A stretch of 64,000 nt of DNA from Chitinophaga pinensis. Lineage in GTDB: Bacteria > Bacteroidota > Bacteroidia > Chitinophagales > CAMDFR01. Below, one piece after another: positions 7,785-43,456 of the stretch (positions are counted from its first letter, which is position 1; the number at the start of each line of letters is the position of its first letter). The notes beneath the pieces were generated by a model. That model ran no database searches and had not been told where the DNA came from. It saw only the letters and a program-made list of their open reading frames with translations. A program made the translations under genes and the position numbers. The stretch spans positions 62,001 through 126,000 of the forward strand of contig CAMART010000004.1 in assembly GCA_945860705.1 (NCBI GenBank). The letters are read 5' to 3'.

Positions 7785-8486
7785 TCATCTATACTTTTTT
7801 AATATATCTAAAAACATATTCTCGCTTTGGTATCCTTCTATTCTCTTTAGTATATTTCCTTTACTATCAAAGATAATAGTAGCAGGTATACTTTTTACAC
7901 CATAATCTTGTGTTATCTGCACTCCATCAAATGCATCTATATCTATCTTGTAAGCTAAATAATTTGAACTTATTTCTGCTAATATATCCGATTTACTAAA
8001 AACCTGTTTATCCATCATTTTGCATGGTCCACACCAGTCTGCTGTAAATTGTATAAAATACTTTTTATTTGTACTATCTGCTAGTTTTATAAAATCTGAA
8101 TAGATTATATCTTGAAACAAAAAAGCATTTGATTCTATTTTTCTATTTATAATCTCATTATTGTATATGACTATATCATTAGAAGGAGCAATAAGATTTG
8201 TATCAACATTTATATAAAAACTATATTTATTTACTTCAGGTATATGAGATATAGTATCATAGACAAAGGCAGTATCAACTTGATTTTTCAATAATGAATC
8301 CATATACAAAAGAAGATTATCTTTTTGTTCTGTTAATTTAGTAGTTGTATTATTTTCTTGATTGGTATTTGATACCGTATCAGATATAATATTAGTATCC
8401 ATATCTAAATATACCTGTGCATCTAGATTATATTCTACAAATATTATCAAGACAAAGCAAAAAATTATTTTAGATAAATTTATCAT
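7785..8486 (-). CDS. exported thioredoxin-fold protein
   Basis: The C-terminal third carries a thioredoxin domain with the active-site motif ADWCGPCKMMD (cysteines near residues 152 and 155 counted from the start chosen here) and the cis-proline segment GVKSIPATIIFD. The N-terminus has a hydrophobic export signal and is followed by a polar linker of about 100 residues. The upstream in-frame start at 8510 is rejected because it lies inside the terminator hairpin of the preceding gene; the start at 8486 gives MINLSKIIFCFVLII, a normal signal. The protein probably acts as a periplasmic thiol-disulfide oxidoreductase. Its targets are unknown. Confidence 0.85.
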   Translation of the reverse strand: MINLSKIIFCFVLIIFVEYNLDAQVYLDMDTNIISDTVSNTNQENNTTTKLTEQKDNLLLYMDSLLKNQVDTAFVYDTISHIPEVNKYSFYINVDTNLIAPSNDIVIYNNEIINRKIESNAFLFQDIIYSDFIKLADSTNKKYFIQFTADWCGPCKMMDKQVFSKSDILAEISSNYLAYKIDIDAFDGVQITQDYGVKSIPATIIFDSKGNILKRIEGYQSENMFLDILKKYR

Positions 8487-38019: not shown

Positions 38020-39123
38020 TTGGTATCAAAAGAAAACTTTGCTATAGAAGCAAATGCTATATCTGCGAATAAGCAAAAGCCCTTTTTAATAAGTGGTCCG
38101 TGCAGTGCAGAAACCGAAGAACAAGTGCATCAAACAATAGACGCACTCATACTTCACAATCCAAATATACATGTCATAAGAGCTGGAATATGGAAACCTA
38201 GAACTAGACCTGGAGCATTTGAAGGTATAGGTAAGGTAGGATTAAGTTGGCTGAAAGATGCATGTACAAAACATGATAAACCATGTACTGTAGAAGTAGC
38301 TAATAAAAGCCATGTGGAAGAAGCACTAGATGCTGGAATAGATATGTTATGGATAGGTGCTCGTACTACAGTAAATCCTTTTGGGGTGCAAGAAATAGCA
38401 GATGCTTTGAAAGGAGTAGATATTCCTATATTGATAAAAAATCCAGTCAATCCCGATATAGATTTATGGATTGGAGCTTTTGAACGATTGAACAAAGCAG
38501 GCATAAAAAATCTTACTGCTATTCATAGAGGATTTTCATCTTATACAAAATCGGAATATAGAAATAAACCAAACTGGGAAATACCTATAGAACTTAAAAG
38601 AAGATTTCCAGATTTGGCTATGATTTGTGATCCATCTCATATATGTGGTAGAAGAGATACCTTGCTCAAAGTAGCTCAAAAAGCTATGGATTTAAATTTT
38701 GATGGATTGATGATAGAGAGCCATATCAATCCTGATCAAGCTTGGAGCGATGCCAACCAACAAATAACTCCACTTCAACTCAAAGAACTACTTGAAAATA
38801 TTGTATTAAGAGAAAATAAAATAGTAGACGAAGAAACAGACTTATCTCTAGTAGAAATGCGCAGCAAAATAGATAGAATAGACAACTATATCATAGAACT
38901 ACTAGCCGAGCGAATGAGTATAAGTGAGGAAATTGGGAGCTATAAAGCGAAAAACAATATCACCATTTATCAGCCAAAAAGATGGTCGCAAATAGTAGAT
39001 AGAATGCTGAAAATAGGCACTCAAAACGGCTTATCTGAGGCTTTTATTTTAAAACTCATACAACAAATAAATAAAGAGAGCATCAGACACCAAACAAATA
39101 TCATGAACAAAAAAGATGCATAA
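38020..39123 (+). CDS. bifunctional DAHP synthase / chorismate mutase
   Basis: The N-terminal domain (about 1-265) is a type I DAHP synthase: FLISGPCSAETEEQ (22-35), AGIWKPRTRPGAFEG, IHRGFSSYTKS and ICDPSHICGRRD. It joins phosphoenolpyruvate and erythrose 4-phosphate, the first shikimate step. The C-terminal part (about 275-360) is an AroQ-type chorismate mutase helix bundle: VEMRSKIDRIDNYIIELLAER. Such fusions allow feedback control by prephenate in other Bacteria. The only usable start is TTG at 38020, because a stop lies directly before it. Confidence 0.93.
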   Translation: MVSKENFAIEANAISANKQKPFLISGPCSAETEEQVHQTIDALILHNPNIHVIRAGIWKPRTRPGAFEGIGKVGLSWLKDACTKHDKPCTVEVANKSHVEEALDAGIDMLWIGARTTVNPFGVQEIADALKGVDIPILIKNPVNPDIDLWIGAFERLNKAGIKNLTAIHRGFSSYTKSEYRNKPNWEIPIELKRRFPDLAMICDPSHICGRRDTLLKVAQKAMDLNFDGLMIESHINPDQAWSDANQQITPLQLKELLENIVLRENKIVDEETDLSLVEMRSKIDRIDNYIIELLAERMSISEEIGSYKAKNNITIYQPKRWSQIVDRMLKIGTQNGLSEAFILKLIQQINKESIRHQTNIMNKKDA

Positions 39124-39209: not shown

Positions 39210-39377
39210 ATGTCATTAACCAATCAAAACAACAAGAAAGATAAGGATAAGAAAAAAGGTGGACCTGCAGCAAGCAAATTTAATATGACTGGAGGCAAAG
39301 GAGGCACTGTAAAATCTCAAACAACAGGCTCTAACAATGCAGCTACACGTTCTAAAGCAGCAGGAAGAGGTAGCTAA
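39210..39377 (+). CDS. small basic Lys/Gly-rich protein
   Basis: A 55-residue open frame (MSLTNQNNKKDKDKKKGGPA at the start, ending AAGRGS) preceded by an A-rich leader. The composition (Lys, Gly, Ser, Asn, Thr; no Cys, Trp, Tyr) is low-complexity and intrinsically disordered. The frame is clean from ATG to TAA and similar short proteins occur in Bacteroidota as far as I recall. It could bind nucleic acid. Function is unknown. Confidence 0.5.
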   Translation: MSLTNQNNKKDKDKKKGGPAASKFNMTGGKGGTVKSQTTGSNNAATRSKAAGRGS

Positions 39378-39404
39378 AAATCATCTTAAAATATTAAAAA
39401 AAAT

Positions 39405-39422
39405 ACCAAACGTTTGTTTGGT
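39405..39422 (+). promoter_or_regulatory. TetR operator in front of the tetR gene
   Basis: ACCAAAC-GTTT-GTTTGGT is a dyad with 7-base arms. With the base before it, TACCAAACGTTTGTTTGGT is identical to 43411-43429 in front of fadN. It overlaps the -33 box of the predicted promoter at 39412-39443, so binding would block RNA polymerase. A half-site GTTTGGTA lies at 39443-39450. Confidence 0.75.
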
Positions 39423-39443
39423 GTTTTTTTTTGCCTAACTTTG
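39412..39443 (+). promoter_or_regulatory. predicted promoter of the TetR gene
   Basis: TTTG (39412-39415), 20 bases, then TAACTTTG (39436-39443) matches the Bacteroidota promoter consensus. It is 23 bases before the ATG at 39467. Confidence 0.6.
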
Positions 39444-39466
39444 TTTGGTAATTATTAGTTGAATCA

Positions 39467-40030
39467 ATGAATATCGAAAAACCCAAGAAAGGCGAACAAG
39501 CCATTATTATAAATTCACTAAAACTTTTTAGACAACAAAGTTTTCATAATACTAGTATGGAAGACATAGCAAAAAGCTGTGGCATACTCAAAGGCAGTCT
39601 ATATCATTATTTCAAAAGCAAAGAAGACTTGATGTTTAGAGTGATTTCTTTTGTGCATTTATATTTTAAAGAAGAAGTATTTATACATGCATATAATGAT
39701 AAAATAAGCGCAAAACAGAAACTAAAAAAACTATGCGATGCGAGTGAGCTTGTATTTTTCGATAAAAAAACAGGTAAACTATATGGCAATATAGGTGTGG
39801 AAAGTGCATTGGTAGTCCCTGAATTTAATCCAATAATTCGTGAATTTTTTCAAGATTTCTTCAACGCAGTAAAACATATCTATAAAGAAAAATATGGTGA
39901 AAAAATAGCCAATGAGCTAGCTGAAAGAAGTGTAGCAGAAGTAGAAGGCAGTATCATGCTTGCTCGTATTTTTAATGATAAAACCTATATCACTAATACG
40001 CATAAAAGAATCATTGCTAGGTTGGAGTAA
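39467..40030 (+). CDS. TetR/AcrR family transcriptional regulator, probable fatty-acid regulator
   Basis: The 187-residue protein has the TetR DNA-binding domain (about residues 10-55) with FHNTSMEDIAKSCGILKGSLYHYFKSKEDLM, followed by a helical ligand-binding domain. The sequence ACCAAACGTTTGTTTGGT occurs over its own promoter and over the promoter of fadN at 43491, so it probably represses itself and the fadN-fadA operon, and releases DNA when it binds acyl-CoA. The direct evidence is only the shared operator; the ligand is inference from known FadR-type TetR proteins. Confidence 0.85.
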   Translation: MNIEKPKKGEQAIIINSLKLFRQQSFHNTSMEDIAKSCGILKGSLYHYFKSKEDLMFRVISFVHLYFKEEVFIHAYNDKISAKQKLKKLCDASELVFFDKKTGKLYGNIGVESALVVPEFNPIIREFFQDFFNAVKHIYKEKYGEKIANELAERSVAEVEGSIMLARIFNDKTYITNTHKRIIARLE

Positions 40031-40035
40031 TTTTA

Positions 40036-40839
40036 TTATGATAATGAAACTTCCCCTTTCTTAAATATACTCGTATAGTTATATAAAAGAGAGATTATAA
40101 AATTGGGAATAAAAGGAAAAATGAATATAATTAATTTATTCATGATACCAGAAATACAAAGTGCTTGATTTTTAAATAATGAATTCATTGCACAACTGGC
40201 AACGTATTCTGGTGTATGCATCACCCTTAATTTTTTTGCTAATTGTATGTTTACTTTTGCTGGATCGTATAATGCAGTAGCAGTTGCACCAGGCATAAGA
40301 CAAGTAACAAATACATTGTGCGGATTCAATTCTGTTCTTAATGCTCTAGTAAAATATCTCATATAAGTTTTTGAAGGACCATACAAAGAAATGAATGGAT
40401 AAGGCATAACTGCTGAGATAGACGAAACATTCAATATATATCCTTTTTTATTTTTCACCATTTCTTTTGAAAAATAATTGCATAAAAATGTAGGTGTATT
40501 GATATGAAGTTGTAAAATTTTTGATACGTCTGTGTCTTTTGCAAAAGCTATTTCAGAAAAAACTAAAATACCTGCATTATTTATGAGCACTTCTATATCT
40601 AAATTATTTTTTGTACAAAAATCGAATATATTTTTAGCAGCATCTTGTCTACTCAAATCTTCACAATATACTATACAATTTAATCTGTATTTAGTATCTA
40701 ATACTATTTTAGCATTATTCAATCCTATCTCATCATTACTGACCAAAAGTAAATTATATTTCAATTGTGCTAGCTCATGACATATAGCCAAACCAATACC
40801 AGATGATGCACCTGTGACTAATGCTATTTTATGATTCAT
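40036..40839 (-). CDS. short-chain dehydrogenase/reductase
   Basis: A 267-residue SDR with TGASSGIG (residues 9-16), NNAG (87-90), catalytic Ser around 139 and YGPSK (Tyr153, Lys157). A hydrophobic stretch near the C-terminus (about 228-247) could attach it to the membrane. Its start overlaps the end of the OYE gene by 11 bases, so the two are coupled in one operon on the minus strand, converging on the tetR gene. The substrate is unknown; a redox step on lipids or enones is possible given the neighbour. Confidence 0.85.
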   Translation of the reverse strand: MNHKIALVTGASSGIGLAICHELAQLKYNLLLVSNDEIGLNNAKIVLDTKYRLNCIVYCEDLSRQDAAKNIFDFCTKNNLDIEVLINNAGILVFSEIAFAKDTDVSKILQLHINTPTFLCNYFSKEMVKNKKGYILNVSSISAVMPYPFISLYGPSKTYMRYFTRALRTELNPHNVFVTCLMPGATATALYDPAKVNIQLAKKLRVMHTPEYVASCAMNSLFKNQALCISGIMNKLIIFIFPFIPNFIISLLYNYTSIFKKGEVSLS

Positions 40840-42010
40840 GATGAATTAGTTGGTGTTTATTACATTCAAAAGGTCCATTATACATCACTGCTATACAATG
40901 ATTACAGGTATCACATATTGCCTGCTTTGTTTCATCACTTTTTATATCATTTATAAAACTTGGATTGCTTATTAATGCTCTCGCTATAGCTACAAAATCC
41001 ATTCCTGCATCAAGTGCTTCATCTATATTTTTTTTAGACAATATTCCTCCCACATAAATTAATGGTAGTGATACATTTTTTCTAAAATATGTTGCATCAT
41101 CCAAGAAATAATTTTCTTTAAAATCTAAACTTGGTATTAACTTATTGCCGAAAACTCGTGTAAATATACCCATCATTTTATTATCCATTTTTGATGCTAA
41201 AGTTTTTAGTGGCATATCTCCACGCATCACATACATAGGTGCTTTACTTACATAACCACCGCTTAATACTAATGCATGCACGCCTATTGTTTCCAGTTTT
41301 TTAGCAACTATCAATGCTTCTTCTTTATGCATACCCTCTTTAAATCCGTCATCCATATTCATTTTTACAATGACAGCAATTTTGTCTTTTGCTACCCCTA
41401 ACACTTCTTCCATAACCATAGTCATAAATTTCATTCTATTTTCTATACTACCACCAAATTCGTCTCTGCGTGTATTTATATATGGAGATAAAAATTGACT
41501 TATCAAATATCCATGACCTGCATGAATTTCAATTGCATCCAATCCACAATCTATAGCTATTTGCGTTGCTTTTGCAAAGCTTAACGATATTTGTCGCATA
41601 TCTTTTTGCGTCATCGCTTTAGCAAAACATGGAGCATATAAATTAATATGAGAAGTAGCGCTCCAAGGTCTTCGACCTATGAGTGAATATTTAGACATAT
41701 TACCACAATGTCCTATTTGAATAGAAAGAGCAGTATCTTCTTGATGTATCTTATCTGCAAATAATTTCAAACTGGGTTTTAACGAATCATTGATTAATAA
41801 TTGGTGAGGGAAAGACAAACCTGATTTTTCTACAGCTGCATATGCTATAGTAGTCATCGCTACTCCACCCCTAGCTACAGATAAATGATAATCGAGTAAT
41901 TCATTACTGAGTTGATGTCCTGCACACATCCCTTCAAATGCAGCTGCTCGTATGCTTCTATTTTTAAGTAAAAGAGGTCCTATTTTGAAAGGTGTAAATA
42001 ATGTTGACAT
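40829..42010 (-). CDS. NADH:flavin oxidoreductase (old yellow enzyme family)
   Basis: The 393-residue TIM-barrel flavoenzyme has the OYE hallmarks: TPFKIGPLLLKNR at the start, a His pair in IEIHAGHGYLISQFLSPYINTRRDEFGG (about 161-188), YVGGI and ARALISNPSFI for FMN phosphate binding, and a cysteine cluster CDTCNHC near the C-terminus. It lacks the extra domains of 2,4-dienoyl-CoA reductase (usual 640 residues). It probably reduces C=C bonds of enones or enoyl compounds. TATCTTTG (minus, about 42032) may be its promoter. Confidence 0.87.
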   Translation of the reverse strand: MSTLFTPFKIGPLLLKNRSIRAAAFEGMCAGHQLSNELLDYHLSVARGGVAMTTIAYAAVEKSGLSFPHQLLINDSLKPSLKLFADKIHQEDTALSIQIGHCGNMSKYSLIGRRPWSATSHINLYAPCFAKAMTQKDMRQISLSFAKATQIAIDCGLDAIEIHAGHGYLISQFLSPYINTRRDEFGGSIENRMKFMTMVMEEVLGVAKDKIAVIVKMNMDDGFKEGMHKEEALIVAKKLETIGVHALVLSGGYVSKAPMYVMRGDMPLKTLASKMDNKMMGIFTRVFGNKLIPSLDFKENYFLDDATYFRKNVSLPLIYVGGILSKKNIDEALDAGMDFVAIARALISNPSFINDIKSDETKQAICDTCNHCIAVMYNGPFECNKHQLIHHES

Positions 42011-42124
42011 TCAGATAAATTAATAGATTGTCAAAGATATTATTTAAGTAACTAAATATATTTAAAGATTAAAATACTATTTTATCTTTTATTTTGTATT
42101 TTTGTATCATAAAATTTATATAGC

Positions 42125-42568
42125 ATGAATAAAATAGAATTAAAAGAAAAAATGATTAGCATTCAAAATGACTTAATCTTAAATCTCGAAAAAACTTTAA
42201 ACGACTATAATACTGGTGCTGATTTAGATGAAGACAACACATTAGATATTGAGGATCTATCACATCAAGATGAGTTTAATGATATTAGAAATTCATTAAG
42301 TAGTAGATATAAAAATGCAAAAACTGATTTAGAGAATTTAAAAGACATGAATTTTGATGAATCTAATTCTATAGAGAAAGGTGCAATAGTGCAGTTGAAT
42401 AAACTAAACTATGTAATAGGAATAGCTATACCTAAATTCAAGTTACATGACAAAACTTATGTAGGTATATCTGAAAATGCCCCAATAATCAAACATATGA
42501 AAAGTAAAAATATAGGAGAATCATTTATGTTTAATGATAAGAAATTTGTGATAAACGATATTCTATAA
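42125..42568 (+). CDS. GreA/GreB-like hypothetical protein
   Basis: The 147-residue protein has an N-terminal helical, charged region (about 1-85, probably coiled coil, rich in Glu, Asp, Lys, Asn) and a C-terminal beta domain (IEKGAIVQL, VIGIAIP, then the SPIGxALLGKxVGDExxx-like stretch APIIKHMKSKNIGESFMF). This layout resembles the GreA/B-type proteins of Bacteroidota that are not true Gre factors. The similarity is weak and a role at RNA polymerase is not proven. Confidence 0.5.
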   Translation: MNKIELKEKMISIQNDLILNLEKTLNDYNTGADLDEDNTLDIEDLSHQDEFNDIRNSLSSRYKNAKTDLENLKDMNFDESNSIEKGAIVQLNKLNYVIGIAIPKFKLHDKTYVGISENAPIIKHMKSKNIGESFMFNDKKFVINDIL

Positions 42569-42589
42569 TTCTATAACAACAATAGTCAC

Positions 42590-43303
42590 CTACTTTTTTC
42601 TAGATTCTTTTCGCAAAACATTTAGTTTTTGCTTAGTTTCTTTATTAATTTTTTCAGTAGCAGCACTATAAGCTATAGAAGAAATATCTAATGTATTTTT
42701 TTCAATAAAATCTAAAGTTTCTTTTGGATAGATATTATAAATTTCTCTGAGCGTCCAGCCTATTCCTTTTTGTACATAATATGCATCGTCTTTTAATAAT
42801 GGCTGTATAAAAGAAATCAGCTCTTCAAATGGCAATACTTTTTTGCGCTTACTAGCATACTCTAGAAGTCCTACAATTGATTGTCTTCGCTTCCAGAGAT
42901 TTTCAGACTTATTCCATTTTTTATAGTAAGGCAAAATCCAATTAGGATTTTCTTCTAATACTTGAGCATATATTTTTGATAGATCATCACTATGCTCCCA
43001 ACAGCTACACTTATCTACCCAATTGATGATTTTCTCAAATTCATTTTTACTTAGTGATTTATGCTGAAATGGATATATAGATAAACTCATAGATTCAAAA
43101 TAAGAAGTATTATTCCATATAAAATCCCAAATAGCTAATTGGAGTTCTGCATCGTGCTCTTGAAACGAAAATACTTTTTGTTTGATAAATGCTCTGAGTG
43201 AAGGAACTGTATAATGAAACTTTTGAACAGAAGCATACTCTTTACTTTTGTTTTTAGAATTTAGCTCTATATAGCTCTCTAATTCTTTTAAATATTTATC
43301 CAT
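42590..43303 (-). CDS. DNA alkylation repair enzyme (AlkD-like HEAT repeat protein)
   Basis: The 237-residue all-helical protein matches AlkD-type glycosylases: HxxVPSLRAFIKQ, WDFIWNNTSYFE, NWVDKCSCWEHSDDLSKIY, WKRRQSIVGLLEYA and YYVQKGIGWTLREIY are conserved family segments. Such proteins excise alkylated bases by wrapping DNA in HEAT repeats. It converges on the preceding gene, and its 5' end faces fadN. Confidence 0.82.
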   Translation of the reverse strand: MDKYLKELESYIELNSKNKSKEYASVQKFHYTVPSLRAFIKQKVFSFQEHDAELQLAIWDFIWNNTSYFESMSLSIYPFQHKSLSKNEFEKIINWVDKCSCWEHSDDLSKIYAQVLEENPNWILPYYKKWNKSENLWKRRQSIVGLLEYASKRKKVLPFEELISFIQPLLKDDAYYVQKGIGWTLREIYNIYPKETLDFIEKNTLDISSIAYSAATEKINKETKQKLNVLRKESRKK

Positions 43304-43411
43304 AATAAAGAGTAAATATATAATTTTTCACATTAAATAACATGACCCAACAACAAGATATTTCTGTATATTTATAAAAATATTTAGGTAGGTAAATTTT
43401 TGAAAAATTTT

Positions 43412-43429
43412 ACCAAACGTTTGTTTGGT
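43412..43429 (+). promoter_or_regulatory. TetR operator in front of fadN
   Basis: ACCAAACGTTTGTTTGGT, the same 18-base dyad as at 39405-39422 (19 bases identical with the leading T). Here an A follows, giving a perfect TACCAAAC / GTTTGGTA pair of arms. It covers the -33 TTTG of the promoter at 43424-43456. Confidence 0.78.
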
Positions 43430-43456
43430 AAATTGAAATAAATATACTTATATTTG
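43424..43456 (+). promoter_or_regulatory. predicted fadN promoter
   Basis: TTTG (43424-43427), 21 bases, then TATATTTG (43449-43456) fits the Bacteroidota consensus. The leader to the ATG at 43491 is about 30 bases. Confidence 0.65.

Follow-up and report, generated by a model that had tools for sequence, protein, structure and literature searches.

The tetR-fadN locus

The window, as we call the whole 64,000-nucleotide stretch of DNA analyzed here, lies on contig C4 of a 2.94-Mb genome (G000) and contains a gene for a TetR-family regulator and the beta-oxidation genes fadN and fadI (Table 1). Four genes separate tetR from fadN, and each half of the locus has its own operator. The fadN-fadI order is conserved, and fadI is probably on the same transcript as fadN. 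Between a 367-aa ORF (38020-39123) and tetR, a short forward-strand ORF (39210-39377) would encode a peptide of some 55 aa rich in Lys and Gly (MSLTNQNNKKDKDKKKGGPAASKFNMTGG...).

Table 1. Genes and regulatory features of the tetR-fadN locus, in window coordinates
Feature	Position	Strand	Remarks
Operator O1, TACCAAAC-GTTT-GTTTGGTg	39404..39423	+	Upstream of tetR; exact match; kept in all four genus members and upstream of 48 of 50 orthologs
-7 box TAACTTTG, tetR promoter	39436..39443	+	19 bp from TTTG; identical box in all genus members
Secondary right half-site CTTTGTTTGGTAA	39439..39451	+	27 bp downstream of the right half of O1; over the tetR promoter's -7 box and probable start site
tetR, TetR-family regulator, 187 aa, proposed beta-oxidation repressor	39467..40030	+	TetR_N, 59.3 bits; AlphaFold2 pLDDT 88.8, TetR fold
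Operator O2, TACCAAAC-GTTT-GTTTGGTA	43411..43430	+	Upstream of fadN; exact match; at fadN in 4/4 genus members
-7 box TATATTTG, fadN promoter	43449..43456	+	21 bp from TTTG; equivalent box in relatives
fadN, 3-hydroxyacyl-CoA dehydrogenase / enoyl-CoA hydratase, 799 aa	43491..45890	+	3HCDH_N, 3HCDH, ECH_1
fadI, acetyl-CoA C-acyltransferase (thiolase), 392 aa	46010..47188	+	Thiolase_N/C; 119 bp after fadN

The initial annotation had reported an identical dyadic 19-mer before tetR and fadN and nowhere else in the window. The sequence TACCAAACGTTTGTTTGGT was indeed found exactly twice, at 39404-39422 and 43411-43429, and a scan of the window allowing up to three mismatches to TACCAAAC-N4-GTTTGGT gave no third copy, the two known copies being read on both strands. 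Each is a dyad of 7-bp arms, ACCAAAC and GTTTGGT, around GTTT, and the dyad of the fadN copy is longer (TACCAAAC...GTTTGGTA). Under a first-order Markov model of the window, 0.00016 exact occurrences of ACCAAAC-N4-GTTTGGT are expected per window and 0.007 per genome.

Promoter geometry

Bacteroides promoters have been described as having a -33/-7 pattern in which TTTG stands upstream of a TAnnTTTG box (PMC2483708; PMC7366714). The TTTG of the tetR promoter (39413-39416) and that of the fadN promoter (43424-43427) are followed by such boxes after spacers of 19 and 21 bp, respectively. From this measured geometry, the -33 TTTG is inside the operator at both genes and the -7 box is outside, in agreement with the overlap and spacing first proposed.

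The half-site CTTTGTTTGGTAA, a feature absent from the initial annotation, was conserved in all four genus genomes, while the bases between it and O1 were not; it was not seen in other genera. Its position over the tetR -7 box could possibly tighten autoregulation.

The TetR protein

The N-terminus of TetR carries the helix-turn-helix domain of the family, with a PF00440 score well above the cut-off of 24 bits, and the AlphaFold2 model is all-helical with nine helices, as in the TetR-family fold. As is also typical of the family, a dyad operator lies near its own gene. The top PDB matches of the model were TetR proteins (TM 0.82-0.85), and the closest solved structure was an uncharacterised TetR of Legionella (3on4, TM 0.82-0.85) rather than a FadR. 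Bacillus FadR, FasR, AibR and PfmR were lower-ranked fold neighbours, which agrees with a CoA-ester effector without proving it. The protein scored far below the cut-offs of the equivalog models for Bacillus FadR (NF053878, 36.1 bits against 200) and AcuR (NF051457, 65.5 bits against 247).

Genome-wide distribution of the operator

In the whole genome, ACCAAAC-N4-GTTTGGT occurred in three exact copies against about 0.01 expected, and the reversed pattern, used as a control, in none. The copies lie before tetR, before fadN-fadI and, at C9:46883, 27 bp upstream of a minus-strand gene for a 599-aa acyl-CoA dehydrogenase (acdh), which passes the NCBI FadE model NF058590. The enrichment before fatty-acid genes predicted by the initial annotation was thus seen. 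Four sites had a single mismatch; three were within genes, and the sole regulatory one (C11:78014) precedes etfB-etfA. The etfB operator (L017, about 8015-8032) shares bases with the likely start codon of a small divergent gene, and this overlap may be the cause of its single mismatch (ACC to ATC).

The further sites checked with one or two mismatches were within genes, except for three. C9:46879 is the acdh operator read out of register. For C3:192809, between genes with arms ACCAATC/GATTGGT, and C15:74269, near a contig end, we claim no regulatory role. Among the downstream genes that had been predicted, acyl-CoA dehydrogenase and electron-transfer flavoprotein (etfBA) were found; the acyl-CoA ligase genes of the genome had no site within two mismatches, and the same was true of its other acyl-CoA dehydrogenases. 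None of the 0- and 1-mismatch sites belonged to the other four TetR genes of the genome.

The operator had also been said to cover the promoters. This applies to the -33 element at tetR and fadN, with the -7 box left free, and not to every target: in this genome, the etfB operator is upstream of the likely -33 element, and the acdh operator is just before the start codon and not over -33. Because the operator is placed differently at these two targets, the block may act at different steps there.

Conservation of the regulator and its operator

The three genus relatives had the site at the same four targets (tetR, fadN, acdh and etfBA), as far as their contigs allow. A TetR ortholog was present in 89 of 199 Chitinophagales genomes. 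The exact site was found in 40 of these 89 and in 4 of the 110 genomes lacking the ortholog (Fisher p = 6e-13, uncorrected for relatedness and overstating independence because the genomes are related). All matches in the four TetR-less genomes were within genes (L178, L207, L179, L209, L211); every intergenic site of the regulatory type that was seen belonged to a genome with the ortholog.

When 50 TetR orthologs were examined, 48 had a site with up to three mismatches upstream of their own gene, and 31 had TAnnTT(T/C)G 16-21 bp from the TTTG of the site. The gene order tetR-fadN-fadI-acyl-CoA dehydrogenase was kept in most of 80 loci, which were named records mostly from Chitinophagales and other Bacteroidota MAGs. 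The operator precedes the TetR ortholog also where tetR is apart from fadN (L096-L098, L120, L126), and in L094 tetR is adjacent to fadN, yet each has one operator. Away from tetR, the intergenic exact sites of relatives were found before fadN, acyl-CoA dehydrogenase and etfBA (six further genomes), and further ones before thiolase, FadE-type dehydrogenase and SDR genes. Across 295 genomes of the class, with G000 set aside, the exact 20-bp sequence TACCAAACRANCGTTTGGTA occurred only three times, outside the order; all three matches precede a TetR relative (37-43% identical), followed by fadN in two.

The etfB operator of L193 and L196 has another, imperfect operator-like sequence just upstream of it, which reads acctacctttgtttgata in L193. 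Exact sites upstream of a glmS-like gene (L188:1501, L208:1428) have a different spacer (ACCAAACTATAGTTTGGT) and no CG junction; they were set aside as probably unrelated and are possibly the site of another regulator. The L183 site before a TonB-plug gene, which overlaps a short ORF, was also set aside.

Operator anatomy

The average of 77 sites was TTTACCAAAC-RANC-GTTTGGTAAA. GTTTG was invariant, and CG was found at one arm junction in 77/77 sites, though the 14-base search pattern did not demand it. The left arm, which holds no promoter element, was equally conserved across the fadN, acdh and etf sites. The tetR operator of one clade, which comprises most of L040-L060, has the form CC(T/G/A)ACC-RAYC-GTTTGGTAA, a near-gapless dyad with a changed left arm (CCTACC or CCGACC); four genomes of this clade keep the N4 dyad at etfBA.

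We tentatively propose, at somewhat less than even confidence, that Chitinophagales and some neighbouring Bacteroidota have this TetR subfamily as their ancestral regulator of beta-oxidation, and that the operator of the subfamily, in which the -33 TTTG is embedded, combines two dyad registers, ACCAAAC-N4-GTTTGGT and a gapless (T)ACCRAYC|GTTTGGT(A), maintained by way of the invariant CG. One clade would then have moved the tetR-fadN operator to the gapless form and kept the N4 form at etfBA. A QacR-like reading of the overlapping dyads, with two dimers, was considered and is not claimed, because the 2-bp offset of the dyad centres makes simultaneous binding unlikely.

Comparison with known regulators

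Bacillus FadR (NF053878; 3whb/3whc, 5gpa) resembles the TetR described here in its TetR fold (TM about 0.6-0.7) and its link to fatty-acid degradation, but the present protein is far from the family cut-off, as given above. The operator of Bacillus FadR, TGAATGA..TCATTCA, is probably unrelated to the one found here. Thermus PfmR reportedly has the consensus TACCGACCGNTNGGTN, which fits the TACCGACCGTTTGGTA variant of the tetR operator found in a related clade; its fold match to our TetR is TM 0.65-0.70 with only 16-18% identity.

In Thermus thermophilus, a TetR-family FadR represses the 3-hydroxyacyl-CoA dehydrogenase - thiolase - acyl-CoA dehydrogenase operon TTHA0890-0892 (PMC5597230). Its gene order is identical to that of the fad cluster here, whereas the operator, TTRNACYNRGTNYAA (PMC5597230), is unlike ACCAAAC-N4-GTTTGGT, and a visual comparison did not place the 77 sites in the Thermus FadR regulon. 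The most similar known operator is that of Thermus PaaR (TTHA0973), also a TetR-family protein of CoA-linked catabolism: its selected consensus AACnAACGTTnGTT (PMC6651687) and ACCAAACGTTTGTT agree in 13 of 14 positions. The PaaR regulon differs, being that of phenylacetate, and the effector is phenylacetyl-CoA according to the title of a cited reference. FadR_Sa of Sulfolobus acidocaldarius, a TetR-family repressor of a beta-oxidation cluster (PMC6449355), likewise has an operator at its own gene, and differs in being archaeal, with a 16-bp motif and a large 23-gene cluster.

A proposed beta-oxidation repressor and its alternatives

We consider it very likely that TetR is an autoregulated, FadR-like repressor of beta-oxidation, which would block promoters at its own gene and the fad genes and be released by a pathway intermediate. 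The target set, here and in relatives, and the co-occurrence of site and regulator support this reading, which the initial annotation had already proposed. As for a FadR-type regulator, the operators are on core beta-oxidation genes (fadN-fadI, acyl-CoA dehydrogenase, etfBA and thiolase). In the proposed mechanism, a dimeric TetR would bind operators of the TTTACCAAAC-RANC-GTTTGGTAAA type before its own gene and, in this genome, before fadN-fadI, the FadE-type acyl-CoA dehydrogenase and etfBA. At tetR and fadN, the promoter's -33 TTTG lies within the right half of the operator, so RNA polymerase would be kept off by the bound repressor. During fatty-acid degradation, the repressor would be released by an intermediate, for which a fatty acyl-CoA is the likeliest candidate, and the pathway and the repressor gene itself would be switched on.

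The regulator and operator may be as described and the effector a metabolite further downstream or another CoA thioester, be it of a branched-chain, a dicarboxylic or an aromatic acid. The weak NCBIfam matches of the protein, both far below cut-off, were best to AcuR, an acrylate regulator, and then to Bacillus FadR; its fold neighbours include AibR (isovaleryl-CoA) and PfmR besides FadR and FasR; and PaaR, the close operator relative, has by the title mentioned above a phenylacetyl-CoA effector. Every target, however, is a general beta-oxidation enzyme (fadN, fadI, acyl-CoA dehydrogenase, ETF), and no branched-chain or phenylacetate genes were seen at the sites, so that we regard another effector as rather unlikely.

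It is far less probable that a different regulator binds the operator and that tetR is a passenger of the fad cluster. The genome does have four further TetR genes, and we infer the binding of the operator by this TetR; but the site precedes the TetR ortholog even where the gene lies apart from fadN, and intergenic regulatory-type sites were found only in genomes with the ortholog. That the sites are chance repeats or similar promoters, as TTTG-rich Bacteroidota promoters with the -33 TTTG in the right half might suggest, is refuted by the Markov expectation and the genome copy number, with all three copies at one pathway or its regulator, by the co-occurrence across the order and by the equal conservation of the non-promoter left arm.

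This type of switch is textbook, and FadR-type TetR regulators are already known from Bacillus, Thermus and Sulfolobus; on the best reading, the present regulator is of a known kind and new by sequence and operator. A literature search, with most subscription journals outside its coverage, found neither a description of any Bacteroidota regulator of fatty-acid degradation nor a published account of the switch in the Chitinophagales lineage. As predicted from sequence, a conserved on/off switch made of a repressor and a 20-base tag recurs across Chitinophagales. The analysis provides, for a large environmental order, a regulator, a list of targets and a 20-bp operator whose motif is drawn from 77 sites, and the operator site can be used to annotate beta-oxidation genes and their promoters in uncultured genomes.
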